Shown piece after piece: positions 405 to 14,406 of a DNA stretch of 14,635 nucleotides. The translations under genes and the position numbers were made by a program. The stretch's first letter is position 1, and every line of letters starts with the position of its first letter. The notes under the pieces were generated by a model, which saw nothing but the letters and a program-made list of their open reading frames with translations, was not told where the DNA came from and searched no databases. Source of the stretch: Candidatus Enterococcus ferrettii (GTDB taxonomy: Bacteria > Bacillota > Bacilli > Lactobacillales > Enterococcaceae); the NCBI RefSeq assembly GCF_017377655.1, contig NZ_JAFREL010000038.1, positions 1 to 14,635 on the forward strand, read 5' to 3'.

Positions 405-1241
405 CTAATACACTCTTGAAATATGCAATGTTAAGTACAGCAGCTCATCTTGATTCACTGAAGCATCCATTTCTTCTTGGACATACTCCTTGATCTTTAC
501 GGCTGCCCGATAATCTTTAGGAAAGCGTTGCTTCACTGAAGCTAATAAAAAATCGTCTTTTTCTGGCAGTTCTTCTTTTTTTATCATCCGGGCAATGAAA
601 AACTGCAAATGAGTAACAAATCTTAGATAGAGCATGGAATCCTTGTCAATTTGCTTTTCAGGAAATAAATAACTCAACATGGTCAATATATCCTTTAGAG
701 CTCTCACGGAAAGCATGGTTTCTTCCATATTCGTTTGCTCACTTTGAGCATTTACAATATGAAAAGCAATATTTCCGGCCTCTTCTTCTGGCAACTGAAC
801 ATTCATCTTTTTGTTAATTAGTTCAATAGCGTAGCAGCCAACTGCAAATTCCTTTGGATAATACTTTTGAATTTCAATCAGCAAGCGATTTTGAAAAACA
901 ATACCCTTCTGACTGCGTTCGATCGCATACTTCAAGTGATCAACCAGCGTAAAAAATAAACTTTTATTCAGTTTAAAGTCAAACTTGCTGTTAGCATAAT
1001 CAATAATTCGCTTCACACAAATAATTAGATCATCCGAAGCATCCTCAAACAATTTGATGTAATCCTTTTTTAGAGCGTCAGAAAGTGAATCTAATTTAAA
1101 TATTTTTTGGATTTTATCAGCTGGAACAAGATCGCCTTTCTTGAGTTGAAATCCGATCCCTTTTCCCATTAATATCACCTCTTTGCCTTGTTTATCTAAG
1201 CAAAGAATTAAACTATTGTTTAACGTTTTAGCTACTCTCAT
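405..1241 (-). CDS. licT: BglG/LicT-family transcriptional antiterminator
   Basis: RNA-binding antiterminator that should bind the RAT hairpin at 4584-4612 and let transcription pass the terminator before the permease gene. The 278-residue protein has an N-terminal co-antiterminator domain (about 1-55, with LNNSLILC and GKGIGF) followed by two PRD domains. The four histidines used for PTS phosphorylation in this family are visible: H102 (VDHLKYAIER) and H161 (IAFHIVNAQ) in PRD1, H211 (FVTHLQFF) and H273 (YLTLHISRV) in PRD2. The frame is open back to 1298, but the start is the ATG at 1241: it gives the family N-terminus MRVAKTLNNS and has a GAGGGGG site just upstream. It begins 17 nt after the glucosidase stop, so it is the third gene of the operon. 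With no promoter of its own seen, its supply depends on the operon it activates. Confidence 0.94.
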   Translation of the reverse strand: MRVAKTLNNSLILCLDKQGKEVILMGKGIGFQLKKGDLVPADKIQKIFKLDSLSDALKKDYIKLFEDASDDLIICVKRIIDYANSKFDFKLNKSLFFTLVDHLKYAIERSQKGIVFQNRLLIEIQKYYPKEFAVGCYAIELINKKMNVQLPEEEAGNIAFHIVNAQSEQTNMEETMLSVRALKDILTMLSYLFPEKQIDKDSMLYLRFVTHLQFFIARMIKKEELPEKDDFLLASVKQRFPKDYRAAVKIKEYVQEEMDASVNQDELLYLTLHISRVY

Positions 1242-1258
1242 TAGATTCACCGCCCCCT

Positions 1259-2668
1259 CTAAGCTAAGCCATTTCGAGCAATTAATTCTTGGAACCAAAA
1301 GAAACTTTCTTTTCTCATTCGTTTTAATTCTTTAAGGTCCCCATCCGTTCGGTCAACATAAATAAATCCGTAACGTTTATTAAAACCTTGATGAGTACTG
1401 ACAACATCAATCGCTGACCAAGGCATATAACCAAAGACATCGACACCATCTGTTAAAGCTTCCTGAATAGCCAAAATATGTTTGGCTAAATAATCAATTC
1501 TATCCTGGTCATTGATTCGCCCGTCTTCATCCACTATATCTGGAGCTCCGTATCCATTTTCGGTAATTAAAATAGGTAAATCATACCGGTCATATAGTTT
1601 TCTTAGGGTTAGTCTTAATCCAGTAGGATCAACTACCCAGCCATAGGGCGTTTTATCAACATAAGGATTTTCTGCTGCTCGGTAGACGCCTTCTTCCCCC
1701 AACATAATTTGTTGATCTCCTGCTCTAGCGGAGACATCTGATCCATCATTCTTACTAGCAGCGATCGTGGCAGTTGAATAGTAATTAATCGCAATAAAAT
1801 CGGGTTTTCCGGAACCTAATATTTCCTGATCTTCTGCTTCAATTTTAGGATATAATCCGCGATCATTCAAATAGTTTTCAAACAAATAATTGTATTTCCC
1901 ACGAACTGCTGCATCTAAGAAAGACCAGCCTCTTAATGTTTCCCAATTATGGGCTGCAATTGCATCTTCCGGACTGGAAGTGGCTTGATACATAGCAGTT
2001 AAATTGATAGCTGGACCGATTTTTCCTTTAAGATTCAACTGATGGTACAAGTGAATCACTTTAGCTTGAGCCAATAAAACATGGTGGTTAATTTGAAAGA
2101 GTTCTTTTTTTGAAGGCAGCTGTCCACTAAGTGGTAGACCGATGGCACCAGGATGCAGGATCATGGTGTTTTGTTCGTTAATCGTTAACCAATAGTTTAC
2201 CTTATCACCGTATTCATGAAATAGTATTTTTATATAATCGACGAAATGATCAATGGTCTCCCGATTTAACCAACCACCTTGTTCCTCTAAAAAATAAGGT
2301 AAATCGAAATGGTACATGGTTACGATGGGTTCAATTCCCTGATTCAAACATTCATCAATAACTTGATGATAAAAAGAAATCCCCTTCTGATTCACTTTGT
2401 TGTTTTCAATATCCATGATCCGAGTCCAAGCGATGGAAAAGCGAAAAGCCTTCAAACCCAATTCTTTGAACAGTTGAATGTCCTCTTTGTAGTGATGATA
2501 AAAATCCGAAGCTACTTCAAAGTTGGCTACCCCTTCTGTATGCTGATACTTGTCAATAATTGATGGCTGCTTTCCATCTTCTTGATAAGCTCCTTCTGCT
2601 TGGTAAGCACTAATGGAGGCTCCCCATAAAAAATTCTCTGGAAATGCTGAAAGCTGTTTGTACTGCAC
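1259..2668 (-). CDS. bglA: 6-phospho-beta-glucosidase (GH1)
   Basis: Cytoplasmic glycoside hydrolase family 1 enzyme that splits the phosphorylated beta-glucosides delivered by the neighbouring EII permease into glucose-6-phosphate and an aglycone or sugar. The 469-residue length is normal. The acid/base glutamate is E165 in TINEQN and the nucleophile is E370 in LITENGYG. The 6-phosphate recognition trio of phospho-glycosidases is present as S424, K431 and Y433 (STHQGFNKRYGF). The N-terminus FPENFLWGASISAYQAEG is the family's standard opening. The start is GTG at 2668, with AAGGAG at 2683-2678, 9 nt upstream and overlapping the permease stop codon, so translation is probably coupled. Confidence 0.96.
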   Translation of the reverse strand: MQYKQLSAFPENFLWGASISAYQAEGAYQEDGKQPSIIDKYQHTEGVANFEVASDFYHHYKEDIQLFKELGLKAFRFSIAWTRIMDIENNKVNQKGISFYHQVIDECLNQGIEPIVTMYHFDLPYFLEEQGGWLNRETIDHFVDYIKILFHEYGDKVNYWLTINEQNTMILHPGAIGLPLSGQLPSKKELFQINHHVLLAQAKVIHLYHQLNLKGKIGPAINLTAMYQATSSPEDAIAAHNWETLRGWSFLDAAVRGKYNYLFENYLNDRGLYPKIEAEDQEILGSGKPDFIAINYYSTATIAASKNDGSDVSARAGDQQIMLGEEGVYRAAENPYVDKTPYGWVVDPTGLRLTLRKLYDRYDLPILITENGYGAPDIVDEDGRINDQDRIDYLAKHILAIQEALTDGVDVFGYMPWSAIDVVSTHQGFNKRYGFIYVDRTDGDLKELKRMRKESFFWFQELIARNGLA

Positions 2669-2681
2669 GAAAATCCTCTCC

Positions 2682-4505
2682 TTAACTAATTTGCATCAAT
2701 GGTTCATGTTCCTTTAAGTTTCCGGTTGTTTCACTAATTACTTCATAATTTTCACTGTTGGTCACCACAACGATCACTGTATCATCGTAGCCCGCATTTC
2801 TAATGGAATCAAAATCGGCGTCGATTAGCAACTGTCCTGCTGAAACCTGATCCCCTGCTTTTACGAAAACTTCAAAGGGCTTACCTTTGAGATTCACCGT
2901 GTCGATCCCAACATGGATTAATAGTTCAATTCCATCTTTTGAACGCAAACCAATAGCATGCTTAGATTCCAAAATAGTGATAACTTCTCCATCAACTGGT
3001 GAATAAATGCTATTTTCTTCCGGATGAATGGCGACACCTTTACCTAATAAGCCTTTAGAAAAAACGGCATCGTTAACTTCAGAAATAGGATAAATACTTC
3101 CTTTTATTGGACTTTCAATGATGATCGATGATTCCGCTGAAGCCTGTTCTAGTTCATCGGAAGTATCATCAAATCCGATTAGATAAGCAATAATAAAGGT
3201 TGCAACAAAAGCAATCACACATGTAATAATTGCATGAACAATATTCATCGGATTCTCACCAATGAAAGCGGGCAATGCTGCTAAACCTGGTGAAACAAAA
3301 GCATATCTTACCAAACCGCTCAAGCCAGCATATAAACCAGCGATCGCACCGCCAATCATTGAAGCTACCAATGGTTTTTTCAGCTTCAAGGTCACTCCGT
3401 ATAATGAAGGCTCAGTGATTCCCATTAAAGCAGTAATTCCGGTAGAAACAGCTAACTGCTTTAACTCTTTGTTTTTCGTTTTCGCAGCCACTGCAAACGT
3501 AGCCCCAGACTGGGCAATATTGGAGGCTAACATCCCTGGTCCATTGATCATTTCTGAACCATTGCTGCTTAGCTGCATAGTAGCAATTGGTGTCATGGCC
3601 CAAGCTGTTCCGGTTACAACAAGGAAAGGTTGTAAACCACCCATTAAAAATGGAATTAACCATGCTGCCTTACCGTTAATCCACTCAGCTCCAACTGCTA
3701 CAAGATCATTTAGTAGCGTTCCGAATGGTCCAATAACTACTAACGCCAACGGTCCCATGATCAGAAAAACCAGCATTGGTTTAGTAAAGAACTTGATAAA
3801 TGAGGGTGAAATCCGATCGGCAAAGGGTTCCACATAGGACATAATCCAAACCGTGAAAATAATTGGTAACACCGACCCAGCATAATCAGCAGCCAATACC
3901 GGAATTCCTAAGAAAGAAACTGCATCACCAGTAGAAAAAAGCTGCGAAATATTAGGATGAAGCAAGATACCGGCAACTGTAATCGCCAAAATTGGACTGA
4001 CATCAAACTTTATTGCAGCCCCATAAGCTAAGAGTACTGGCATAAAGTAAAAGGCTGCATCAGCGATCGTATTCAAAATGATGTAAGTTTGACTGCTATC
4101 TGATAGTACACCAGTCAAGGTCAAGACTGCTAAGATAGCTTTTACCATCCCAGCACCAGTGATTGCTGGAATCATTGGAGTGAAAGTAGTCGAAATAATA
4201 CTAATCAGTCTTGAAATAATACTTTCCTGACTATCAGAAGGTTTTTTCTGCTTAATAGAGTTACCAACCGCTTTTTGAATTTCTTTAAAAGCAGTTTGGA
4301 CTTCATTGCCAATGACAACCTGGTACTGACCACCACTATCAACAACACTAATCACACCCGAAGTTTTTTCTAAAGCTTTAGTATCAGCTTTTTTCTTATC
4401 TTTGAGCTCAAAACGTAATCTAGTTGCACAGTGGGTTAAACTGACCACGTTTTCTTTTCCTCCAACATGCTGCAATACATTTCTTCCTACTTCTCTGTAA
4501 TCCAT
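2682..4505 (-). CDS. bglP: PTS beta-glucoside-specific EIIBCA permease
   Basis: Membrane transporter that imports and phosphorylates aryl-beta-glucosides using HPr-phosphate. The 607 residues run in B-C-A order. EIIB (about 1-90) has the phosphocysteine C26 in LTHCATRLRF. EIIC (about 110-450) is a run of hydrophobic segments with the conserved GITEPSLYG loop. The C-terminal glucose-type EIIA has H516 and the phosphorylated H531 (LLIHVGIDTV), 15 residues apart as in that family. The frame is open to 4556, but the added 17 codons lie inside the leader terminator. The real start is ATG at 4505, with AAAGGAG at 4520-4514 and an N-terminus MDYREVGRNVL typical of EIIB. EIIA/EIIB should also set the phosphorylation state of the antiterminator, giving substrate-dependent induction. 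Confidence 0.96.
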   Translation of the reverse strand: MDYREVGRNVLQHVGGKENVVSLTHCATRLRFELKDKKKADTKALEKTSGVISVVDSGGQYQVVIGNEVQTAFKEIQKAVGNSIKQKKPSDSQESIISRLISIISTTFTPMIPAITGAGMVKAILAVLTLTGVLSDSSQTYIILNTIADAAFYFMPVLLAYGAAIKFDVSPILAITVAGILLHPNISQLFSTGDAVSFLGIPVLAADYAGSVLPIIFTVWIMSYVEPFADRISPSFIKFFTKPMLVFLIMGPLALVVIGPFGTLLNDLVAVGAEWINGKAAWLIPFLMGGLQPFLVVTGTAWAMTPIATMQLSSNGSEMINGPGMLASNIAQSGATFAVAAKTKNKELKQLAVSTGITALMGITEPSLYGVTLKLKKPLVASMIGGAIAGLYAGLSGLVRYAFVSPGLAALPAFIGENPMNIVHAIITCVIAFVATFIIAYLIGFDDTSDELEQASAESSIIIESPIKGSIYPISEVNDAVFSKGLLGKGVAIHPEENSIYSPVDGEVITILESKHAIGLRSKDGIELLIHVGIDTVNLKGKPFEVFVKAGDQVSAGQLLIDADFDSIRNAGYDDTVIVVVTNSENYEVISETTGNLKEHEPLMQIS

Positions 4506-4527
4506 CTTTCTCTCTCCTTTAAACAGT

Positions 4528-4589
4528 AAAAAAGACCAAGTCAAACCACGCCTCAACCAAAAATTGAAGTGTTAGTTTGTCTTGGTCTT
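4528..4589 (-). terminator. Leader terminator controlled by antitermination
   Basis: On the minus strand the arm AAGACCAAGACAAAC (4589-4575) pairs with GTTTGACTTGGTCTT (4546-4532), 14 of 15 positions complementary, and is followed by a U-run (4533-4528). It sits between promoter and permease start. Its 5' arm shares GACC with the 3' end of the RAT at 4584-4612, so RAT and terminator structures are mutually exclusive. This is the standard BglG/LicT control switch. Confidence 0.92.
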
Positions 4590-4721: not shown

Positions 4722-5513
4722 TTAAATCACATCAGCGAATGTATATCTACGCATACCTGCTGCTAAAATGAGTACGTCTAGTACCAACCATACCAGTAAA
4801 ACCATTCCTACATAGCTGGCGGGAAATTCCCAAAATTGTGAGAGCATCGAAAACGCAGATAACGGATCACACAGCTTCAACCACTCTGCTTTTGGAAACA
4901 GTTGGTGAATTTGATAAGTGAAGGATGGAATAAACAGCATCCCTACCATGTAGACAGTAATGGTAATACTTGTTTTTTTAGTAAAAACCAATAAGCAATA
5001 ACCAATTGCAATCATTCCAAGATATAAAGGCATTGATAGAATGATTTGTACGAGCATTCTCAAAATGAAGGCTAAATTAATTCCACCAAAACCATACAGC
5101 AGAACGCCCAATGCTGTACTCGCTGCTAAACAAACGATAGTGTACACTATGCAGCAAAGAAACCCAGTAATGCACTTTGCCAAAAAAACAATCCTCCGAT
5201 TAGCAAAGTAGGACAAAGTGTTTCGAATAGTTCCAGTTGAGTAATCTGCTCCTAAGACAGCTGTTGCAAAAGCAAGAATAAAGAAAGGAAATAGACCATC
5301 ATCTCGCATTTGCTGGATAAAATCAGCACCATTTACTGGCAAAGATCGAGCCGCACTTGCTGCTGATTGAACGCCGATTCCACCAGTACCGCCACCTGAG
5401 TTAAACATATTTAAGCCAGTAATAATAATAATCACTACACCAGCCAGCAATACATTTCGAACTGCGTTTCCTTTGCCTAATCTAAAGAACTCTGCTTTTA
5501 TCAAATTTACCAT
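4722..5513 (-). CDS. ABC-2-type permease subunit (partner of BcrA-like ATPase)
   Basis: Integral membrane partner of the ATPase encoded just upstream. The 263 residues start MVNLIKAEFFRLGKG, a cytoplasmic amphipathic lead typical of ABC-2 permeases. About six membrane segments follow (starting near residues 21, 75, 110, 145, 180 and 240), with a Gly/Ser-rich extracellular loop after the first. BcrB, LanE/LanG and Na+/peptide exporters have this layout, but sequence alone does not show the substrate. The frame is open to 5537 and would overlap the ATPase stop; I prefer ATG 5513, because AAGGAG at 5528-5523 sits 9 nt from it. No terminator is visible between its stop and the beta-glucoside promoter about 55 bp on, so some read-through into that leader is possible. 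Confidence 0.87.
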   Translation of the reverse strand: MVNLIKAEFFRLGKGNAVRNVLLAGVVIIIITGLNMFNSGGGTGGIGVQSAASAARSLPVNGADFIQQMRDDGLFPFFILAFATAVLGADYSTGTIRNTLSYFANRRIVFLAKCITGFLCCIVYTIVCLAASTALGVLLYGFGGINLAFILRMLVQIILSMPLYLGMIAIGYCLLVFTKKTSITITVYMVGMLFIPSFTYQIHQLFPKAEWLKLCDPLSAFSMLSQFWEFPASYVGMVLLVWLVLDVLILAAGMRRYTFADVI

Positions 5514-5526
5514 TGCTTTTCTCTCC

Positions 5527-6441
5527 TTATGCTGCATTAATTACACTGACAAAATAGTCTTCTAAATTTATTTTTACTTCGTTTGATGAATAGACCTTAA
5601 TTCCATTAGAACTAAGTGTTTCGATAACGATTGAAGGATCATCAAAAAAGCTGAATAAATGAATCTCCTCTTTAGAAACAACTTCGAAATTCGTATTGTC
5701 CAAAGCTGAGCGGATGATCCCTCCCGCCATTCGTGCATCGTCAACCTTAAGGGAAATAAATCCACGGATATCCTCTGCTAATTCCTCCTGAGTAAATTCC
5801 TTGAGCATTTTGCCTTGGTGAATAATGCCGTATCTGGTGGCAATATGTGCCAGTTCAGACAAGATATGACTAGAGATCAGAATAGTTGTTTGGTACTCTT
5901 CATTCAATCGCTTAATCAGGTTTCTAAATTCGATCATTCCAGTTGGGTCCAAGCCGTTAATCGGTTCATCCAAAATTAAAAATTCTGGATTCCCCATAAT
6001 TGCTAAGGCCAATCCCAACCTTTGCTTCATTCCTAATGAAAACTGGTGAAATTTCTTCCTGCCGGTATCACTAAGATTTACCAGCTGCAATACTCGTTCA
6101 ATTTCATTTTCATCAACCAGACCTCTTTGAATCCAGTAGTACTCCAAATTTTCCCGCGCAGTCATTTTTGGGAAAAAGACTGGGGTCTCAATCATAGAAC
6201 CAATTCTTGTTCGGGCCTGCTGCAGCTCATCTGCTTTACTGCTACCAAAAAGTTCAATTTCTCCACTAGAAGGTAGTATTAAGGAGGTAATTAACCGCAG
6301 CAGCGTAGTTTTCCCAGCCCCGTTTTCACCAATAAATCCGTAAATCTCACCTTTTCTTATCGTCATATTTATTTTACTTACTGCCATTCTTCCTGTATAG
6401 GATTTTGACAGCTGTGTAGTTCTTAAAATCGTCTTCTCCAT
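5527..6441 (-). CDS. ABC transporter ATPase, BcrA / lantibiotic-immunity type
   Basis: Cytoplasmic ATPase of a two-gene exporter. The 304 residues contain Walker A GENGAGKTT (38-46), signature SLGMKQR (136-142), Walker B FLILDEP (155-161) with the PINGLDP D-loop common in BcrA/LanF proteins, and the switch His H192 (SSHILSE). The C-terminal 90 residues form an accessory domain of unknown role. Relatives remove bacitracin or lantibiotics from the membrane, so a peptide-resistance role is a reasonable inference but not proven. The start ATG has AAAGGAG at 6453-6447. Its stop is 13 nt before the permease start. Transcription probably begins from the direct-repeat promoter at 6534-6563, leaving a leader of about 85 nt. 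Confidence 0.94.
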   Translation of the reverse strand: MEKTILRTTQLSKSYTGRMAVSKINMTIRKGEIYGFIGENGAGKTTLLRLITSLILPSSGEIELFGSSKADELQQARTRIGSMIETPVFFPKMTARENLEYYWIQRGLVDENEIERVLQLVNLSDTGRKKFHQFSLGMKQRLGLALAIMGNPEFLILDEPINGLDPTGMIEFRNLIKRLNEEYQTTILISSHILSELAHIATRYGIIHQGKMLKEFTQEELAEDIRGFISLKVDDARMAGGIIRSALDNTNFEVVSKEEIHLFSFFDDPSIVIETLSSNGIKVYSSNEVKINLEDYFVSVINAA

Positions 6442-6533: not shown

Positions 6534-6563
6534 ACTATATACAATGAACCTTTAACGAACCTA
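6534..6563 (-). promoter_or_regulatory. Response-regulator-type promoter 1 (BcrA-like ABC operon)
   Basis: Minus strand: half-site TAGGTTC (6563-6557), GTTA, half-site AAGGTTC (6552-6546), six bases, then -10 TATAGT (6539-6534). The half-sites are 11 bp apart, one helical turn. The same arrangement precedes four other units in this window, including the response-regulator gene. There is no good -35 hexamer, as expected for an activated promoter. Confidence 0.72.
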
Positions 6564-6569
6564 AAATTA

Positions 6570-6653
6570 CTATCTTTCATTCCGCCAAATGGCAAAGAGT
6601 AAATTGATAATCACAGTTAGAATAATTGAGAATAGAATGGATCGAAAAAGCAT
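6570..6653 (-). CDS. Small hydrophobic peptide (27 aa), hypothetical
   Basis: Short ORF between the MacB-like operon's hairpin and the next promoter. It starts MLFRSILFSII, continues LTVIINLLFAIW and ends RNER: one predicted membrane helix with a basic tail. GGAG within AAAAAAGGAG (6672-6663) lies 9 nt before the ATG at 6653. An in-frame ATG at 6662 would give 30 residues but abuts the GGAG directly. There is no room for a separate promoter between the hairpin at 6691-6718 and this start, so expression would need read-through from the exporter operon. The strong ribosome binding site and hydrophobic composition argue for a real gene, perhaps a regulatory subunit of one of the two transporters. 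Homology is unknown to me. Confidence 0.5.
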   Translation of the reverse strand: MLFRSILFSIILTVIINLLFAIWRNER

Positions 6654-6690
6654 TACGCTCATCTCCTTTTTTAAAAGCCATTAGATACAC

Positions 6691-6718
6691 GAAAAGCAGT
6701 CTGAATCGACTGCTTTTC
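6691..6718 (-). terminator. Terminator-like hairpin after the MacB-like operon
   Basis: Perfect 11-bp arms GAAAAGCAGTC and GACTGCTTTTC with a 6-nt loop, 10 nt after the permease stop. The U-rich part is only the CTTTTC inside the stem, followed by GTGTATCT, so termination may be partial. That matters because a small ORF with a strong ribosome binding site follows directly. Confidence 0.65.
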
Positions 6719-6727
6719 TCCACTTGA

Positions 6728-7954
6728 TTAACGAAGCAATGTGACGATATCTTTTTTCGCTGCATTTTTAGCTGGCAGCCAACTAAAGATAATCCCTACA
6801 ACAACTGACAAACCTGCTGCTAACAGTACCGTAAATAGATCAGGTTTGACTGACAATGGAGTAATCATACTGACTAAAACTCCAAATAACATGCCAAACA
6901 GATAGCCGATGGTACCTCCTAGCAAGGTCAACGTTACTCCTTCCAATAGAAATTGTTTCATGATATTTCCTTTCGTTGCTCCCATGGCACGACGAACGCC
7001 AATTTCTTTGGTTCGTTCTGAAACCGATATATAAATCATATTCATCACACCAATACCTGAGATAAACAATGAAATGCCACCAATTACAGAAATCAATAAG
7101 GTAATACTGGTCAATAAAGTTCGCAGCGTGTCTACTTGGCTAGTCATGTCTTCTGTCGCATAATTACCAAAATCTCGCCAAACGCCTTGTTCCTTAAGCA
7201 TATTCTCCGCATTTTTTGAGACTTCTTCTGCATTGACAGTCTGCTTCATGTTGACTGAAATCATGTCGTGCTTTTCTGATTTAAAGAAGCGCTCGTAGCT
7301 GCTTTCGGGTATTTCAGCAGTTACGGAGGAATCTTGAGAAACCACAATCGGTCCTGGCTGACGCTCCGCCATAATTCCTACAACTTTAAATAAATGTCCA
7401 CCAATGCTAATAGATTTTCCAATGAGAGATTGAGGTTCTTTCTCGTTAATGGCTTTGGCAGTCACTTCATCAATAACCACTGCCCGATTTTCGTTAATAT
7501 GGTCGCTCTCTAGGATTGGACGGCCGTAAAGGACCGGTGTCCCTTCAGCTTTCAATAGTTTAAAACTATTTGTACGGCTGGTATTGCCGACATCCTTGAT
7601 AGGCTGTTCCGCATATTTTGTTCCGTTTTCCGTTTGGTCATAGTAATCTACGGATTCTACGCCGTCCAATGTTTCTAATCGACTCATGTCTTCCTGTGTG
7701 AAAGCATCTAAACCATTTTCGGTAAAATCCTCATTTTTGGGTGTGAAGGAATAACCAATACTGTTATCAAAAGAATCCAGTCCCAATAATTCAGAGGAAT
7801 ATTGCTCAAACGCACGACCAATAGAAAATACCGTAATAACCGCGGAGACTCCGATAATTAAGCCAATCATCGTCAGAAAGCTGCGACGCTTGTTCTTACC
7901 AATTGCTTTCAGGGAGGTTTTCCAGATTTCACTAATACGCAAAAGCTTCACCAT
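6728..7954 (-). CDS. MacB/FtsX-like ABC permease
   Basis: Membrane subunit of the tripartite exporter encoded at 6728-9439. The 408 residues show the MacB layout: a cytoplasmic lead with KAIGKNKRRSFLTMIG, membrane helix 1 (about 25-46), a large extracellular domain (about 47-275), then three helices (about 281-310, 337-363, 373-395). The motif SERTKEIGVRRAMGA (about 312-326) in the cytoplasmic loop is the family hallmark. MacB-type permeases act by mechanotransmission and move peptides or lipoproteins out of the outer face of the membrane; the substrate here is not shown. The start overlaps the end of the ATPase gene by 23 bp within a short tandem duplication, so translation is probably coupled. 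The single Met start is not fixed by a well-spaced ribosome binding site. Confidence 0.93.
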   Translation of the reverse strand: MVKLLRISEIWKTSLKAIGKNKRRSFLTMIGLIIGVSAVITVFSIGRAFEQYSSELLGLDSFDNSIGYSFTPKNEDFTENGLDAFTQEDMSRLETLDGVESVDYYDQTENGTKYAEQPIKDVGNTSRTNSFKLLKAEGTPVLYGRPILESDHINENRAVVIDEVTAKAINEKEPQSLIGKSISIGGHLFKVVGIMAERQPGPIVVSQDSSVTAEIPESSYERFFKSEKHDMISVNMKQTVNAEEVSKNAENMLKEQGVWRDFGNYATEDMTSQVDTLRTLLTSITLLISVIGGISLFISGIGVMNMIYISVSERTKEIGVRRAMGATKGNIMKQFLLEGVTLTLLGGTIGYLFGMLFGVLVSMITPLSVKPDLFTVLLAAGLSVVVGIIFSWLPAKNAAKKDIVTLLR

Positions 7955-8618
7955 CCTTCAAAAGCTCGCCATCCTTCACGGTAATAATTCGCTCACATTG
8001 TGCGGCCGCATCAGGATCATGGGTTACCATTAAAATCGTAACCTTTTCCTCTTCATTCAGATGTTTGAACAAATACATAATCTCGTCTGACGTTTTACTG
8101 TCCAGCGCTCCAGTTGGCTCATCAGCTACGATGAATTTAGGGTTCCCAACAATCGCGCGGGCGATCGCCACCCGCTGCTGTTGACCACCAGAAAGCTGTT
8201 TCGGTAATTTATTGTATTTATCGGCAATTCCTACTTTTTCAAGAGCTGCCATAACCAGTGGTTTGGTTTTTCGTTGTTTCATGCCGCCATAAAGCAAGGG
8301 TAAAGCGACATTTTCCATCACCGTATTGTTGTCAATTAGCTGAAACGCTTGGAATACAAAACCGACTGACTCATTGCGTAAGGCAGAAAGCTTTTCATCC
8401 TTAAAACGATAAGAATTTTCCTGATTAAAGCGATAAGTTCCTTCAAAATCACCATCCAAGAAACTAATTGTATTGATCAAGGTGGATTTTCCTGATCCGG
8501 AAGGACCCATGATTGCCACAAATTCTTGTTCATTGATGGTTAGAGAAATATCCTTTAACACATGAATTTTTTCCTGATCGACGATGTAATACTTATTAAT
8601 TCCGGTCATTTCGATCAT
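7932..8618 (-). CDS. MacB-family ABC transporter ATPase (LolD/YknY type)
   Basis: Energises the adaptor-permease exporter encoded on either side. The 228-residue stand-alone ATPase has Walker A GPSGSGKST (38-46), Q-loop VFQAFQL (about 88-94), signature LSGGQQQR (142-149), Walker B FIVADEPTGALD (162-173) and switch His H200 (VTHDPD). Length and motifs fit the LolD/MacB/YknY subfamily. Its ATG overlaps the adaptor stop as ATGA, a classic coupling arrangement, and its own ribosome binding site is weak. The final codons contain a near-perfect tandem 18/19-bp duplication (7940-7976) encoding KDGELL then KDGEAF. Confidence 0.95.
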   Translation of the reverse strand: MIEMTGINKYYIVDQEKIHVLKDISLTINEQEFVAIMGPSGSGKSTLINTISFLDGDFEGTYRFNQENSYRFKDEKLSALRNESVGFVFQAFQLIDNNTVMENVALPLLYGGMKQRKTKPLVMAALEKVGIADKYNKLPKQLSGGQQQRVAIARAIVGNPKFIVADEPTGALDSKTSDEIMYLFKHLNEEEKVTILMVTHDPDAAAQCERIITVKDGELLKDGEAFAY

Positions 8619-9439
8619 TCAGCGGTCACATCCATCCCATCACGAATGCCTTGAATATCTTTAATGATCTTTTCGTTTTCTTGCAGACCTTCTCTCATAA
8701 TGTAATAGCCATTGACTTTTTCAGCAATAATTTTTCGTTTTTCGGCTTTGCCTTTGTTAACGGTATAAACATAATGAGCGCCATCTTCTTCAGAAACACT
8801 TTGCTCTGGTAATCGGATCTCGTCTCTTGGGATTAAAATTTCCACTGAATACCCTACTGGAACCGGCTGATCAGAAACTGCAGTATAGTTGTAAGTCACA
8901 ATTCCATCCTGACTGTCCTCATCCGGTTCATTGTTCACTTCTGAGATATTCGTCACTCTTCCTTGAACGATTTGACCGTTACTTGTATATTGAATATCTA
9001 CAGGCTGCTCTAAATTGATTTTCGACCGATCGTATTCAGTTACGGTTCCCTTAATCGTTTGTTCCACACTTTTCAGTACCATAATTGGTTTTTGTGGGTC
9101 ATTCTTGGCATCTTCATCTAGTGAAGTGACTATTGAATCATGCTCCGCTCGGACAATTTCTCCCCAGCGATAAGTAATTAATGGAGTTCCTTTCGTTACA
9201 TGCTGTCCTTCTGCAACATGAATGGTTCGAACCGGTCCCTTTTCTTCATCGACAAAAACCGATTGTTTTTTGAGCGACTGAACTTGCCCCTTAAGTCTTA
9301 GAGGCTCCTGTTTTTTTGCCTCATAGAGCTCTACTGGTGTTCCTTCATCTTCTGCAGTTGCCTGAGAGCTTTGGTAAAATAGGAATCCAGCTACCGCAAC
9401 GACAGCTATTCCTAAACCAATTAAGATTTTTTTCTTCAT
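8615..9439 (-). CDS. Membrane-fusion/adaptor protein (YknX/MacA-like, hairpin-less)
   Basis: Extracytoplasmic adaptor of the tripartite exporter. The 274 residues begin with an N-terminal membrane anchor (about 6-22) after MKKK. A lipoyl-like pair of half-motifs follows (about 47-120, including VRTIHVAEGQHVTKG), then a beta-barrel-like part (about 121-200) and a membrane-proximal domain to the end. The two lipoyl halves are nearly contiguous: the long coiled-coil hairpin that MacA-type adaptors place between them is missing, which explains the short length. Loss of the hairpin is reasonable in a Gram-positive cell with no outer-membrane channel to reach. AAAGGAG lies about 7 nt before the ATG. 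It is the first gene of the operon and follows the direct-repeat promoter at 9499-9528. Confidence 0.88.
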   Translation of the reverse strand: MKKKILIGLGIAVVAVAGFLFYQSSQATAEDEGTPVELYEAKKQEPLRLKGQVQSLKKQSVFVDEEKGPVRTIHVAEGQHVTKGTPLITYRWGEIVRAEHDSIVTSLDEDAKNDPQKPIMVLKSVEQTIKGTVTEYDRSKINLEQPVDIQYTSNGQIVQGRVTNISEVNNEPDEDSQDGIVTYNYTAVSDQPVPVGYSVEILIPRDEIRLPEQSVSEEDGAHYVYTVNKGKAEKRKIIAEKVNGYYIMREGLQENEKIIKDIQGIRDGMDVTAE

Positions 9440-9464
9440 ACATTTACTCCTTTGAAATTATTTA

Positions 9465-9489
9465 ATCTGCTAGAATTCCATCTGCTAGA
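9465..9489. repeat. Tandem 10-bp direct repeat in the adaptor leader
   Basis: Two exact copies of ATCTGCTAGA (plus strand) at 9465-9474 and 9480-9489, with a 15-bp period. They lie between the predicted -10 (9499-9504) and the adaptor start codon, so they would be in the 5' untranslated region. They do not match the half-sites of the shared promoter motif. Purpose unknown. Confidence 0.6.
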
Positions 9490-9498
9490 TATGTTCCT

Positions 9499-9528
9499 AC
9501 TTTAAAAGACTAACCTTGATTGAACCTT
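9499..9528 (-). promoter_or_regulatory. Response-regulator-type promoter 2 (exporter operon)
   Basis: Minus strand: AAGGTTC (9528-9522), AATC, AAGGTTA (9517-9511), six bases, then -10 TAAAGT (9504-9499). The weak -10 and missing -35 imply dependence on an activator. With its flank it is nearly identical to promoter 3 upstream of the lipoprotein gene (21 of 22 bases across the two half-sites). Confidence 0.75.
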
Positions 9529-9658
9529 GAATAAACTTACTGATTTTGTTTTATTTGGCTAATAATTAGCGACATTTCATCAAAATCAATGATCCATCTA
9601 AAAATTTTCAGATAATTATGGCCTAACATCGTATCAGATACAAAGCCGTTTGCTTGAC

Positions 9659-9988
9659 TCAAGTTTTCAGTGTTTCACCACTATAGTATTGTCCAAGACT
9701 ATTGCCAGCCTGAACATTGCCTAAAGCATAGAGCGTCTGGGCGTAGCAGATGGCATTTCGATGATCTTCGGGAATATCTTTTAGTGCCTGCTCCTGCTGC
9801 TTCAGTTGCTTGGCAAGTGCCCCTCTTGAAATATGGATGGAAGGATCAATCAGCTTTGTGGATGAAGATGTCTGATCCGTGGCCTTCTTTTTCTCCAACC
9901 CCTTTGAAGCACAGCCACCAAAAATGGTCACCATCGTTACGACATAGATCATTAAGAAAATTAAACTACCTCTAATTTTTTTGTTCAT
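9659..9988 (-). CDS. Small putative lipoprotein, unknown function
   Basis: I do not recognise this 109-residue protein. It starts MNKKIRG, has a hydrophobic stretch (about 8-23) and a lipobox-like TIFGGC with C26, then a Ser/Thr/Lys-rich linker and a helical, Gln/Ala-rich C-terminal part (about 55-109). Position -3 of the lipobox is Phe where Leu/Val/Ile is usual, so lipidation is likely but not certain. I chose ATG 9988 over the in-frame ATG at 10006 because AAAGG lies 10 nt upstream of it. It stands alone between the kinase and exporter operons, each with its own promoter. No clear terminator follows its stop, so its transcript may run into the exporter operon. As an exported partner in a sensor/exporter cluster it could be a ligand binder or accessory factor; this is inference only. 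Confidence 0.72.
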   Translation of the reverse strand: MNKKIRGSLIFLMIYVVTMVTIFGGCASKGLEKKKATDQTSSSTKLIDPSIHISRGALAKQLKQQEQALKDIPEDHRNAICYAQTLYALGNVQAGNSLGQYYSGETLKT

Positions 9989-10028
9989 CTTCAAATTACC
10001 TTTCATTCAAATTTCTTGTTGCAGCTCC

Positions 10029-10058
10029 ATCCTACTAACCTAAGCTTGATTGAACCTT
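10029..10058 (-). promoter_or_regulatory. Response-regulator-type promoter 3 (lipoprotein gene)
   Basis: Minus strand: AAGGTTC (10058-10052), AATC, AAGCTTA (10047-10041), six bases, then -10 TAGGAT (10034-10029). It begins 10 bp after the U-run of the kinase terminator, so the lipoprotein gene is a separate, independently started unit. Confidence 0.72.
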
Positions 10059-10068
10059 GAATTTCCAT

Positions 10069-10114
10069 AAAAAAAGACTGTAGATCAAAAGCTACAGCCT
10101 TTTTCTACAGTCTT
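10069..10114 (-). terminator. Intrinsic terminator after the kinase gene
   Basis: Arms AAGACTGTAG (10074-10083, plus-strand coordinates) and CTACAGTCTT (10105-10114) are perfectly complementary, and on the minus strand the stem is followed by a run of seven U (10075-10069). The loop contains another copy of the CTGTAG core, which allows an alternative smaller hairpin. It begins a few bases past the kinase stop codon. Confidence 0.9.
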
Positions 10115-10119
10115 ATCAG

Positions 10120-11415
10120 TTATTCTCTTTTCAATATCAGATGAAGAACAAACTCAGTTTCTTCATTTACTTTGCTAGTGAGAGAAATCTTTCCATTTAG
10201 CTGTTCAACAATATTCTGCGCAATCGACAAGCCTAATCCATAACTACCCTCATATTTTTGCCGAACCTCATTCGTACGATAAAAACGCTCAAAGACTTTC
10301 GGTAAATCCTCTCCTGCAATTCCGGCGCCGGTATTTTTAAAACGAATGATGCATTTTCTTCCAGACTCTTCCATCTTCACTTCAAAGGTTCCGCCGTCAT
10401 TGGTATACTTACACGCATTATCAATAAAGATTTCAAACAATTGAATCAGCAATACTTCGTCTGTTTTCGCAGTAATATTGAATAGCTCCTGCTTAACTAT
10501 CACTTGTTTTGAATCAAATTTTTCTTGATAATTATTGAGTGCCTCCTCCAATAATCTATCCACTCGAACCTTCGTGAAATTTAGTGGTTCGAACATATTG
10601 TCCGTTTTAGCTATCGTCAACAATTTATTTATCAATCCGGTCATACGTTTTGTTCCCCGGGAAATATTGTCCAGCCACTTAATCTGTTCTTCGATAGTAT
10701 CTTCTTTACTGGAATACAGCACACCAACATTGGTAGAAATAATACTCAGAGGTGTTTTCAGTTCATGGGAAGCATTTGCGATAAACTGTTTCTGAGTATG
10801 CCAAGCTTCTTCCAACGGCTTCATCGCTCGATTGGCAAAATAAATGATTACTAAGTAGAAAAAGATCAGCAAACCAATTCCGACAATCAGCAAAGTCATC
10901 GCTAGATTTTTTAAACTTTTTTTCGAGTCAGTGACATCAAGGAAACGAATCAAATAGGTTTCATCTTCTTCCCCAATATTTTTATCCTCTTCATCGTAAT
11001 TTAAGCTGGCAATTGCTGGAGCTACCACATATTGCCAATCACGATTACCAAATCGGGTCACACCACCTTCTTGATTTTTCCAAGCAATTTTCGCAGCCTT
11101 GTTATAGTCTTTTTTAGAAAGCTTAATTGCAGAATCAATCATAATCGGCCTTCCAGCCTTGTCTACCAGCATGTTAAAATATACCCCTCCGCCAGGAACA
11201 ATTCGATCAATTTGGAGAGCTTCTTCTTCACTGTCGTCAAAATGAACCTTACCGCCAGTAATTTTTAATTCCTCTGCTTGATTTAGCTTCTCAAAGTTGT
11301 CCGATTGAACTCTTAAATAGGTGGTTAGAAAGATAGCTAAAAACGCCACAATCAAGATAACTGTCACAAAACCGGTAGTCATCGCAATTAATCGGCGTCT
11401 AAATTTTTTAATCAC
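10120..11415 (-). CDS. Sensor histidine kinase (OmpR-partner class)
   Basis: Membrane sensor that should phosphorylate the regulator encoded just upstream. The 431 residues contain membrane helix 1 (about 10-32), an extracellular domain (about 33-170), membrane helix 2 (about 171-194), then a DHp domain with phospho-acceptor H217 (ANASHELKTPLS). The catalytic domain has N-box N333 (FIDNACKYT), G1 NTGAGI (361-366), F-box FERFYR (375-380) and G2 GLGLS (393-397). G1 has Asn where Asp is commonest, a variant known in other kinases. The extracellular loop is long, unlike the short-loop BceS/GraS sensors, so it may bind its stimulus directly. There is no separate HAMP domain. The start is GTG at 11415, with GGAGG at 11429-11425; the gene overlaps the regulator by 8 bp. 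Confidence 0.94.
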   Translation of the reverse strand: MIKKFRRRLIAMTTGFVTVILIVAFLAIFLTTYLRVQSDNFEKLNQAEELKITGGKVHFDDSEEEALQIDRIVPGGGVYFNMLVDKAGRPIMIDSAIKLSKKDYNKAAKIAWKNQEGGVTRFGNRDWQYVVAPAIASLNYDEEDKNIGEEDETYLIRFLDVTDSKKSLKNLAMTLLIVGIGLLIFFYLVIIYFANRAMKPLEEAWHTQKQFIANASHELKTPLSIISTNVGVLYSSKEDTIEEQIKWLDNISRGTKRMTGLINKLLTIAKTDNMFEPLNFTKVRVDRLLEEALNNYQEKFDSKQVIVKQELFNITAKTDEVLLIQLFEIFIDNACKYTNDGGTFEVKMEESGRKCIIRFKNTGAGIAGEDLPKVFERFYRTNEVRQKYEGSYGLGLSIAQNIVEQLNGKISLTSKVNEETEFVLHLILKRE

Positions 11416-12103
11416 TTTGTCGATCCTCCGAAAATTTCAACATATAACCTAAATTACGAATCACCTTAATTTGCGTACAGCTTTCTGCCTGCTTCATCTT
11501 TCTTCTTAAAAGTGAAATATGCATTTCTACATGGTTAGATTCAGCATCGGAATCATAGCCCCAGACCTTTTCAATAATTCTATCTTTAGAAGAAAGCTGC
11601 GGATAATTGTTCATCAAAAATTCCAAAATATTTGCTTCCTTCCTAGTCAGACTGATTTCCTGTGTTTCCGTTATCAGATTCAGAGTATAGGGATTTAATT
11701 CAAAATCTCCCAAAGCAAGGACACCACCTTCTTTGTATTCACTCTTCTTCCGACGCCATAGTGCTTTCAAACGTGCCAAAAGCTCTTGATAATGAAATGG
11801 TTTGCTCAAATAATCATCTGCCCCCAACTCTAGCCCTTCAACCTTATCTTCCAGCTCCCCTTTAGCCGTAAGCATCAGAATCGGGATGTCGACCCCTTCT
11901 TCCCGAGCCTCCTTTAAAATCGTTAATCCATCTTTTTTCGGCAACATAATATCTAAAATAGCCAGATCATATATTCCAGAAACTAAACAGTCTAACCCAT
12001 ACTCTCCTTCCTCGGCTATATCCACAGAATAACCGTTTTTCCGCAGAATTTGAGCGATTGCTTCAGCCAACATAATTTCATCTTCAACTAAAAGAAGTTT
12101 CAT
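11408..12103 (-). CDS. OmpR/PhoB-family response regulator
   Basis: DNA-binding regulator, 231 residues. The receiver domain (about 1-115) has acidic pocket E7/D8, phospho-acceptor D51 (LAILDIMLP), T79 and K101 (LSKPF). The C-terminal winged helix (about 130-225) has LTRKEANILEFL and the recognition region SNHVEMHISLLRRKM, then a closing hairpin with RNLGYML. Members of this family bind as head-to-tail dimers to direct repeats about 11 bp apart. That is the geometry of the five motifs found in this window, including one upstream of this gene (12145-12174), so positive autoregulation is likely. Ribosome binding site GGGAG lies about 8 nt before the ATG. The gene is co-transcribed with the kinase. 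Confidence 0.95.
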   Translation of the reverse strand: MKLLLVEDEIMLAEAIAQILRKNGYSVDIAEEGEYGLDCLVSGIYDLAILDIMLPKKDGLTILKEAREEGVDIPILMLTAKGELEDKVEGLELGADDYLSKPFHYQELLARLKALWRRKKSEYKEGGVLALGDFELNPYTLNLITETQEISLTRKEANILEFLMNNYPQLSSKDRIIEKVWGYDSDAESNHVEMHISLLRRKMKQAESCTQIKVIRNLGYMLKFSEDRQSD

Positions 12104-12144
12104 TAATTATTCTCCCTTATAAATATAGCTAGTGTTCTTACCTT

Positions 12145-12174
12145 ATTATAACGTATCAAACTAAAATGAACCTT
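12145..12174 (-). promoter_or_regulatory. Response-regulator-type promoter 4 (regulator-kinase operon)
   Basis: Minus strand: AAGGTTC (12174-12168), ATTT, a degenerate second half TAGTTTG (12163-12157), six bases, then a perfect -10 TATAAT (12150-12145). The consensus -10 with a weaker second half-site suits a promoter that keeps basal activity and is boosted by its own regulator. Confidence 0.72.
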
Positions 12175-12252
12175 GAATCAAAGCAACTTTTAACTACTAA
12201 AAAACGCTCGATAACTGTTTTTTTATTTATTACTCTTTTCTTTTATCAATTA

Positions 12253-12282
12253 AAGCTTCGCTAAAGGTTCGGCTCTTAGAAT
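12253..12282 (+). promoter_or_regulatory. Response-regulator-type promoter 5 (Asp-box protein gene)
   Basis: Plus strand: AAGCTTC (12253-12259), GCTA, AAGGTTC (12264-12270), six bases, then -10 TAGAAT (12277-12282). It is the only copy facing right and drives the divergent gene at 12316. The same spacing on the opposite strand supports the motif as a functional unit and not a chance run. Confidence 0.75.
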
Positions 12283-12315: not shown

Positions 12316-13287
12316 ATGAACAAAAAGAAATCTGATTATTCTTCAAAAGGACGCTCTGGTAAAAGCTGGGGCAGCCTCCTGCGAACGATTCCCTTTACAA
12401 TACGTGTAGTTATTCTAACTGTTTTGATTGGTTTATCACTAGTCTCCTATAATATCGGGAGAGCCGTTTCTGGAGCAAAAGCAGAGGCTGATCTGCATGC
12501 TTCAAATGAAAAACATCCGGTGACTTCTGAGGATGTAAAGGTACGTAGGAATAATGGAAAATGGGAATTTTCATCTGATGATGGCGTTTCTTGGACTCGC
12601 ACACCACCAGAAGATATTTATGAGGATAAAGACGGTCGACTGCGCTACAAGAATTCTCTATCCAAAACTGTCACTAACGATCCCGAGGACGATTTCTTCA
12701 AATTCCCTTTCGATGATAAAAACGGCAAAGGAATCGTGATGAAGCGAGAAGATGACAAATGGAAATTCTCTTCCGATGGCGGAAAAACTTGGACTGAAGA
12801 GGTACCTGAAGGCGTGGAGGTCGATAAAGAAGGAACACTAACATGGAAAAGCGAAGACGGAAATAAATTATCTGAATTTGACTCTGAAGAAAACAGCTGG
12901 AAGTACTCTGAGGACGGCGGGAAAACCTGGTCTGACCCATTAAAAGATGTCGAAGATTGGTTGAAAAATGGCTTCACGGTTCCAGTAGAAGGCGGAGTTT
13001 CCATGAAATTCCAAGACGGCAAAATTCTTTACTCCACTGATGGTGGGAAAACTTGGTCAGAAGAAGTACCTGAAGGTTTTTCAGATAAAGTGAAATCAGT
13101 TATCACAAAGCAAACTGAAGATGGCAAAACACTGTATTCAATCGATGGCGGCAAGACTTGGTCAGAAGAAAAACCAGAAGGCTTTGAAATTCCTAACATC
13201 GATAACATTCTAGATTCTATCCCGGATGAATTACTGCCGAAAGAAGGAAAAGACGATTTTAGTAAAGGCCCAGCAACTTCGGTCTAA
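12316..13287 (+). CDS. Membrane-anchored protein with five Asp-box repeats
   Basis: I do not recognise a named family. The 323 residues have a basic Ser/Lys-rich cytoplasmic N-terminus (1-25), one membrane helix (about 28-49) and an acidic extracellular region. That region carries five Asp-box motifs of form SxDxGxTW: 86-93, 152-159, 198-205, 240-247 and 275-282. Each is preceded by a K/S-W/L-x-[FY] strand, and most are followed by an acidic EEVPEG-like turn. Asp boxes usually sit in beta-hairpins of sialidase-type propellers, but no catalytic domain is seen, and the spacing shrinks toward the C-terminus (66, 46, 42, 35 residues). GAGG lies 8 nt before the ATG. The gene is divergent from the two-component genes and has the same promoter motif, so it probably belongs to their response as a surface binding or sensing protein. 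The reading frame stays open for 32 codons after its TAA. Confidence 0.85.
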   Translation: MNKKKSDYSSKGRSGKSWGSLLRTIPFTIRVVILTVLIGLSLVSYNIGRAVSGAKAEADLHASNEKHPVTSEDVKVRRNNGKWEFSSDDGVSWTRTPPEDIYEDKDGRLRYKNSLSKTVTNDPEDDFFKFPFDDKNGKGIVMKREDDKWKFSSDGGKTWTEEVPEGVEVDKEGTLTWKSEDGNKLSEFDSEENSWKYSEDGGKTWSDPLKDVEDWLKNGFTVPVEGGVSMKFQDGKILYSTDGGKTWSEEVPEGFSDKVKSVITKQTEDGKTLYSIDGGKTWSEEKPEGFEIPNIDNILDSIPDELLPKEGKDDFSKGPATSV

Positions 13288-13386: not shown

Positions 13387-13436
13387 CTTTCGATTCCAGG
13401 ACAAGAAACAGTTAGTCTTGGAATCGAAAGTTTTTT
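13387..13436. terminator. Bidirectional intrinsic terminator
   Basis: Arms 13387-13402 and 13415-13430 pair over 16 bp (CTTTCGATTCCAGGAC against GTCTTGGAATCGAAAG) with one G-U pair. On the plus strand six T follow (13431-13436). On the minus strand the stem is followed by CTATTTTATAT. It lies between the convergent Asp-box and dehydratase genes and serves both; the T-run overlaps the dehydratase stop codon. Confidence 0.92.
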
Positions 13437-14406
13437 AACGCAAGTATTTATTTAGAGCCATAAGATATCTATTCGCAGATTCATTCGCACCACTCATTTG
13501 CAGCACCACATTTTTCCCTTTTATACGATCAGCTATTTTACGGCAAGCTATCAGTGTTGATCCGCCTGCTCCTTCAGCGACATTATGGGTATAGGTGAAC
13601 GCATAAGCAATTCCTTCCATCAGCTCTTCTTCACTTAACAAAATAAAGTCCTTCAAGTGATCCTTATAAATATCAAAGGTTAAATCAAATCCGGCACCAG
13701 TTGCAAAACCGCCTGCAAAGGTTTTATTTTCAGCCTGTGTAATTTCACCTTTTTCCCACGACAAGTAAGCAGCTTTTGAAGCTTCAGCCTGAACAGCATA
13801 GATTTCGACTGAGGGTTTTAGTGCTTTGAAAACAGTCACTGCAGCAGCTAATTCACTACCACCGCCAATTGGAAGAATAATGACATCGATATCCGGAAGC
13901 TGTCTAAGTATTTCGGTAAATTCCGTTCCTACGCCGTGAATTAAATGCGGTTCATTCGCCGCATGAATAAAGCGATACTGATTTTCCTTTTGCAGCTTTT
14001 GTCCATAGGCAGCAGCTTCCTCAAAATGTTCACCTGCTTCCACCAAAGTTGCTCCAGCATCCTTAATTAACTGATTCTTCTCAGGAGAATTATGTTTCGG
14101 TACCACGATAATTGCCTCTAGACCAAAAAGCTGTGCAGATTTAGCAACCGAAATACCATGATTTCCCGTACTGAAGGTAATGACTCCCGGTACTTCCTCT
14201 TTTTTAAGCTGATGCATAATATTGATGCCGCCTCGTATTTTAAAGCTGCCACCCATGTTTTGATTTTCATGCTTAACATAAACGCTGACCCCAAACAGCT
14301 CACTCAAATTTTGATAATGCAGCAGCTGTGAGGGCTGCATATACTGGTAAACAACCTTTTCTGCCTGTTGAATCCCGTCAATTGATACGTGTGTATTATC
14401 GTCCAC
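13435..14406 (-). CDS. Threonine/serine dehydratase-family PLP enzyme
   Basis: Fold-type II pyridoxal-phosphate enzyme, cytoplasmic, 323 residues. The PLP lysine is K56 in GSFKIRGG, the substrate/carboxylate loop is STGNHG (79-84, N82), the phosphate-binding loop is GGGSELA (181-187), and the pyridine-nitrogen contact is probably the Ser in QMSGAN near the C-terminus. It lacks the C-terminal ACT-like domain of biosynthetic IlvA, so it resembles the short catabolic (TdcB-like) dehydratases that convert threonine to 2-oxobutyrate or serine to pyruvate. Serine racemase and other relatives share these motifs, so substrate is open. The start is GTG at 14406, with AGGAGG at 14420-14415, 8 nt upstream. 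It is a single-gene unit ending in the shared terminator. Confidence 0.88.
   Translation of the reverse strand: MDDNTHVSIDGIQQAEKVVYQYMQPSQLLHYQNLSELFGVSVYVKHENQNMGGSFKIRGGINIMHQLKKEEVPGVITFSTGNHGISVAKSAQLFGLEAIIVVPKHNSPEKNQLIKDAGATLVEAGEHFEEAAAYGQKLQKENQYRFIHAANEPHLIHGVGTEFTEILRQLPDIDVIILPIGGGSELAAAVTVFKALKPSVEIYAVQAEASKAAYLSWEKGEITQAENKTFAGGFATGAGFDLTFDIYKDHLKDFILLSEEELMEGIAYAFTYTHNVAEGAGGSTLIACRKIADRIKGKNVVLQMSGANESANRYLMALNKYLR

Follow-up and report, generated by a model that had tools for sequence, protein, structure and literature searches.

A predicted autoregulated two-component regulon marked by direct-repeat promoter sites in Candidatus Enterococcus ferrettii

Genes and promoter sites of the locus

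We examined a stretch of 14,635 base pairs (bp) from Candidatus Enterococcus ferrettii (NZ_JAFREL010000038.1, the entire contig C90 of a 5.4-Mb genome; hereafter the window), which encodes a two-component system together with several transcription units preceded by a common direct-repeat promoter element, referred to below as the site. The response regulator (11408-12103, minus strand, 231 aa) belongs to the OmpR/PhoB family, with Response_reg and Trans_reg_C domains above cut-off. Its partner, a sensor histidine kinase of 431 aa (10120-11415, minus strand), is of the ordinary HisKA/HATPase_c type and has, between two predicted membrane helices, an extracytoplasmic part which the structural model (mean pLDDT 73) renders as a modest alpha/beta portion; fold searches mostly addressed the catalytic half of the protein. 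On the plus strand lies a gene for a 323-aa Asp-box (BNR) repeat protein with an N-terminal hydrophobic anchor (12316-13287). The minus strand further encodes an ABC-2 type exporter, consisting of an ATPase (5527-6441, ABC_tran) and a permease (4722-5537, ABC2_membrane_2), and a MacAB-type exporter, consisting of a membrane-fusion adaptor (8615-9439, RND_mfp below cut-off), a MacB-type ATPase (7932-8618, ABC_tran) and a MacB-type permease (6728-7954, MacB_PCD and FtsX).

An open reading frame (ORF) at 9659-9988 (minus strand) had been taken for a lipoprotein gene. Compared by eye, it corresponds to both ends of a 492-aa protein of E. florum, which carries TPR and aspartyl-protease-like domains. 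The ORF lacks the middle portion, and its end is no longer in frame. Judged by this comparison, it is what a deletion has left of a longer gene, apparently a decayed target. With a mean pLDDT of 52, the model of the Asp-box protein is too poor to be of use. Among solved structures its sequence matches are Asp-box stretches, mostly in sialidases and xyloglucanases, and its homologs occur in Enterococcus and a few other bacilli, the nearest found being 96% identical (Enterococcus sp. AZ163).

Each of the five sites consists of two half-sites close to AAGGTTC, four bp apart, followed after six bp by a TANNNT hexamer at the -10 position. Site 1 (6534-6563, minus strand; TAGGTTC-gtta-AAGGTTC-attgta-TATAGT, half-sites 6557-6563 and 6546-6552, -10 at 6534-6539) precedes the ABC-2 exporter genes. 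Site 2 (9499-9528, minus strand; AAGGTTC-aatc-AAGGTTA-gtcttt-TAAAGT, half-sites 9522-9528 and 9511-9517, -10 at 9499-9504) precedes the adaptor-MacB-type exporter operon, and site 3 (10029-10058, minus strand; AAGGTTC-aatc-AAGCTTA-ggttag-TAGGAT, half-sites 10052-10058 and 10041-10047, with the -10-like TAGGAT at 10029-10034) the lipoprotein remnant. Site 4 (12145-12174, minus strand; AAGGTTC-attt-TAGTTTG-atacgt-TATAAT, half-sites 12168-12174 and 12157-12163, TATAAT at 12145-12150) stands before the regulator-kinase operon, and site 5 (12253-12282, plus strand; AAGCTTC-gcta-AAGGTTC-ggctct-TAGAAT, half-sites 12253-12259 and 12264-12270, -10 at 12277-12282) before the Asp-box gene. The five sites, their spacing and positions, and the placing of each copy upstream of a different transcription unit had been claimed in a preliminary description of this DNA; direct reading confirmed all of this for all five. 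Mismatches to AAGGTTC-N4-AAGGTTC number 1, 1, 2, 3 and 1 of 14 for sites 1 to 5.

That description also held that no copy needs a -35 hexamer; none of the copies has one, as the best match to TTGACA at spacers of 15-19 reaches only 1-2 of 6 positions at all sites. Since a -35 hexamer at a 17-bp spacer would fall inside the first half-site, the repeat takes its place. The best -10 is obtained at spacer 6, with a mean of 3.89 of 6 matches to TATAAT (next best 2.62, at spacer 4); in 54 of 113 scored sites, which are not mutually independent, no other spacer does as well. These features also bear on the direction of control, as the regulator might repress, rather than activate, all or some of the five promoters. 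A location over the -35 region fits either role and the -10 at 12145 matches TATAAT at every position, but the missing -35 and the fixed spacing to the -10, as in CiaR-activated promoters, make repression unlikely.

For scoring, a matrix was built from 21 sites of other genomes, leaving out the window sites and the -10 and taking the background composition of the window. The five sites occupy the top five places in the window (12253, 23.2; 6534, 21.0; 12145, 18.9; 9499, 15.0; 10029, 12.5), the next best place scoring 7.3, and in 60 first-order resamplings the numbers expected per resampled window at these scores were 0, 0, 0, 0.017 and 0.2, respectively. As the same consensus had served to find the training sites, several of them in near-identical relatives, the ranking supports the five sites and is not independent proof. 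The weakest copy is the one at 10029-10058, with its 0.2 expected and a poor -10; the counterpart of its gene in E. florum is preceded by the same site.

Regulator and site within Enterococcus

An ortholog of the regulator (E <= 1e-80) is present in 8 of 20 genomes of the genus, the window genome included. These genomes were scanned with HAGSTTC-N4-DAGGTTS-N6-TATANT, allowing at most one mismatch. In the seven regulator-positive congeners all 18 matches fall within the regulator locus, each heading the gene for the regulator, the Asp-box protein or the ABC-2 ATPase. Three matches, each with one mismatch, were found in the 12 regulator-negative congeners, and the reversed pattern gave none across all 20 genomes. 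The window genome itself contains eight matches, three of them in the window, so that three of the five window sites are recovered at that stringency.

Conservation upstream of orthologous genes, named in the preliminary description as a check, was indeed found in the congeners. Site 1 has a counterpart in all six relatives' loci with ABC-2 genes, site 4 in six relatives (L060-L065), and site 5 in L060-L064, L066 and L096, with a weaker form in E. raffinosus. The gene order in L060-L065 is Asp-box gene, regulator, kinase, then the site and the ABC-2 exporter, some of these loci having additional genes in between. In the window, two extra units, each with a site, stand between the kinase and the ABC-2 exporter, namely the lipoprotein remnant and the adaptor-MacB operon; their sites, at 10029 and 9499, are the weaker ones and their genes are absent from the locus in the same six relatives. 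E. florum has both the MacB-type and the lipoprotein-counterpart genes with both sites (L192, L197) at a contig end, the junction to its regulator locus being putative. For a MacB-type paralog elsewhere in the window genome (C24), no site was found at three mismatches.

Just upstream of site 1, a 27-residue hydrophobic peptide is encoded at 6570-6653 (minus strand) behind a good ribosome site. A similar small hydrophobic ORF lies between the kinase and the ABC-2 site in three of the six relatives (L061, L062 and L063, not L060, L064 or L065). The 27-residue ORF is a candidate small membrane peptide of the regulator system.

The regulon had been called self-contained, a claim that fails for this genome: strong sites occur on two other contigs, at C102:23821 and C121:15031. 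With the exact enterococcal pattern, these two and the window site at 6534 are the three matches in the window genome, and 397 other sampled genomes of the phylum have none; that sample contains no regulator-positive congener, and the AAGATT sites of Paenibacillus-like bacteria do not fit this pattern. The genome scan proposed earlier (AAGSTTN-N4-AAGGTTN-N6-TANNNT, exact) gave three matches, two in the window and one outside, which counts against the observation.

C102:23821, the highest of all scored sites (25.95 by matrix), is followed by nothing but very short ORFs until a small gene and a Fic-domain gene are reached (L068 8822-9100); possibly, this stretch encodes a small RNA or a small peptide. 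C121:15031 precedes a very short ORF followed by a gene for a CPBP (Rce1-like) membrane protease (L067 15031-16120). Of two weaker sites on the same contig, C121:5276 (L067 5276-5700) belongs to a similar promoter with a very short ORF and then an apparent degraded copy of the CPBP gene, while C121:357 stands 227 bp upstream of a gene which begins close to the end of the contig and is XRE-type by reading only. A further candidate, C66:26397, was set aside because a very similar match in a regulator-negative genome (G005) falls inside a long ORF.

Regulator and site outside the genus

A profile search of 398 sampled genomes of the class detected the regulator subfamily in 35, the window genome among them. 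One family, with genomes mostly of 5-7 Mb, accounts for 31 of the 35; we call it Paenibacillus-like solely from its likeness to Paenibacillus sp. 598K. Loci were examined from 29 of the 34 subfamily genomes other than the window genome. The untuned consensus at two mismatches matched in 28 of them, L199 being the exception. When a widened pattern was used with at most one mismatch, the 350 bp upstream of the regulator contained a site in 27 of the 29 loci, in 20 of them on both strands, against 0.015 expected per region; the same pattern found no site in 22 loci of other OmpR-type regulators. The recognition helix is similar in Enterococcus and Paenibacillus and differs from that of CiaR.

An exact scan of 16 subfamily genomes returned 24 sites, 22 of which lie within 2 kb of the regulator. 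The other two precede CotH-kinase genes far from the regulator, in two genomes of one genus. No exact site was present in 14 genomes lacking the subfamily (checked, 0 of 14), and the reversed control was 0 in all 30. CotH genes are associated with VTC and DUF4956 genes through common neighbourhood. Because CotH belongs with these genes, its being picked out by the motif alone is good support. One C. perfringens locus holds both VTC and CotH genes (PMC2879425). Seven wider flanking loci were read. In L201/L227 the regulator is flanked by a divergent VTC gene together with DUF4956 and a Cthe_2159 protein, and in L233 by a Cthe_2159 protein (by Pfam); L230 and L232 have ORFs resembling these by appearance only, and L231 has none in the stretch read. 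L228 and L229 carry an Asp-box gene in place of this set.

The Asp-box gene adjoins the regulator in the window, in seven relatives' loci, in E. larvae, in Paenibacillus sp. 598K and in a Symbiobacteriaceae genome. Outside the genus this holds for 2 of the 29 subfamily loci (L198 and L199, with 1.5 kb of flank viewed), and none was found beside the regulator in 25 more distant loci (L099-L123). The gene bears the site in Paenibacillus sp. 598K and L198; in L098 and L199 no site was found. To judge by these loci, regulator and site are what stays constant, and the Asp-box gene joins them repeatedly.

Several results weigh against reading the site as the target of this regulator. The widened pattern used for the 29-locus test and the exact scan was set after the untuned-consensus result had been viewed. 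The exact whole-genome scan found no site in two of the subfamily genomes (G756 and G758), and L199 has none at two mismatches. The sample is related by kinship, 31 of the 35 subfamily genomes being of one family and hence not independent, and both CotH sites coming from one genus. Half-sites also differ, AAGGTTC/AAGCTTC in enterococci against AAGATTS in Paenibacillus-like bacteria, the latter being missed by the exact enterococcal pattern. Among more distant regulators (42-55% identity) only 1 of 25 has the site, and the promoter code is therefore not claimed beyond the subfamily. Finally, scanning the window genome with up to three mismatches gave 29 matches against 24 for the reversed control; since such a scan does not discriminate, no genome-wide regulon was drawn from it.

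This last result would suit an origin of the five sites by chance or by recent local duplication only, as would the longer stretch attcAAGGTTCaatcAAG common to the sites at 9499 and 10029, one of which may be a copy. Such an origin is hardly credible in view of the matrix scores and shuffles, the clean result in the 397 genomes, and the conservation across species and families, which by itself already disfavours it. Alternatively, the sites might be read mainly by another OmpR-family regulator, for example of CiaR type, their position beside the present regulator reflecting cross-regulation. OmpR-type regulators are many in the window genome (32 matches at E <= 0.001), and the geometry is the same as that of CiaR promoters. 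However, two congeners with CiaR-like regulators (G008 and G011; L049, L055) lack both the regulator and any matches, and none of the 22 loci of other regulators bears the site; we consider such a reader quite improbable.

We predict, with a probability of roughly 0.87, that the five sites are DNA targets of the regulator at 11408-12103 and define an autoregulated two-component regulon. The earlier inference of such a regulon stands insofar as the site belongs with the neighbouring OmpR-family regulator, a link strongly supported by their co-occurrence both within Enterococcus and beyond it, at promoters of the regulator itself and of its neighbours. It falls as regards self-containment and a lipoprotein target, which is a remnant. 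Very probably, the site marks genes switched on by the sensor-regulator pair.

Proposed mechanism and known systems

A receiver and a winged-helix output domain with a kinase partner, and direct repeats of about 11 bp at the promoters, agree with an OmpR/PhoB-family regulon. In the mechanism we propose, the kinase (10120-11415) would sense a cell-surface signal and phosphorylate the regulator. Two regulator molecules, arranged head to tail, would then occupy the repeat from about -36 to -19 and, given the constant 6 bp between the second half-site and the -10, would substitute for the missing -35 and recruit RNA polymerase. The targets would be the regulator-kinase operon, the Asp-box membrane protein, the ABC-2 exporter, the MacAB-type exporter, the decayed lipoprotein gene and at least two places elsewhere in the genome. 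Binding and activation by the regulator, and its phosphorylation, are what we infer from sequence; envelope or peptide stress would be our guess for the signal.

Over long distances, so far as genome comparison tells, regulator and site stay together and effector genes change: in Paenibacillus-like bacteria they are VTC, DUF4956, Cthe_2159 and CotH surface genes, in enterococci exporters and the CPBP protease. A more speculative extension, which we hold doubtful, is that regulator, kinase and Asp-box protein form an old cell-surface sensing unit, the Asp-box protein serving as signal-binding or feedback partner of the kinase, in which one rigid promoter code (repeat, N4, N6, -10) would have remained fixed as effectors were swapped. 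Our rating is lowered by the rarity of the Asp-box gene as a neighbour of the regulator, seen in few of the subfamily loci outside the genus and in none of the distant ones. An uncharacterised two-component system thus gains a testable predicted binding site and a gene list covering enterococci related to E. raffinosus and E. malodoratus as well as Paenibacillus-like bacteria. The site would open the regulation of VTC, DUF4956, Cthe_2159 and CotH surface genes to study, as well as that of uncharacterised Asp-box membrane proteins, and would offer a clear case of a constant promoter code with turnover of target genes.

Because the geometry equals that of CiaR promoters, the architecture is already known. 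In PMC3091779, the prediction of CiaR-activated promoters uses a distance of five bases between the repeats and of ten bases to the -10. Streptococcal CiaRH (PMC3091779) has the same 11-bp-period direct repeat, with ten bases, counted from AAG, between the second repeat and the -10, a likewise autonomous promoter set under one OmpR-type regulator, and a search pattern without a separate -35. It differs in its half-sites (NTTAAG-N5-TTTAAG versus the AAGGTTC type of the window), its recognition helix (VVEVYVSKVRKKL versus NHVEMHISLLRRKM in the window regulator; PMC3091779) and its targets, which are csRNAs. Identity of 39-40% and the different helix rule out that the regulator is CiaR or its ortholog.

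Two other kinds of system invite comparison. PmrA/BasR-type regulators use direct repeats of similar look. They have the OmpR-family fold in common with the regulator (4s04, 8jo2), with a weak sequence match only (119 bits), and differ in being Gram-negative and having other genes. BceRS-type modules combine a short intramembrane-sensing kinase with a BceB-type permease. Like the window, these and lantibiotic-protection modules place a two-component pair next to ABC exporters, and the ABC-2 ATPase comes nearest to TIGR03740 among NCBIfam models. Its 223.5 bits stay below the cut-off of 309.75, so a lantibiotic-protection transporter of that family was rejected. A BceRS-type peptide-sensing module was likewise discarded: the permeases are of the ABC-2 (ABC2_membrane) and MacB/FtsX (MacB_PCD/FtsX) types, and the kinase differs by its sizeable extracytoplasmic segment, whose modelled alpha/beta part makes a Bce-type intramembrane sensor unlikely. 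In the parts of the open-licence literature covered by our search, no description of the regulator, half-site and targets was found.

At the edges of the window, 405-4556 resembles, by reading of ORFs only, an operon of antiterminator, beta-glucosidase and phosphotransferase system (PTS) genes, and 13435-14406 a threonine-dehydratase-like PALP gene; both are without a site. Scanning the genus with the CiaR consensus was noisy, giving 11 matches against 33 in the control. One CiaR-like promoter (L080 1501-1595; G007:C5:180230) has a strong hairpin and T-run (z -3.3) no more than about 70 bases downstream; the same site recurs at G009:C5:184730, and a similar promoter at G009:C6:63960. The L080 promoter and hairpin represent a candidate csRNA-like small RNA in enterococci lacking the regulator.

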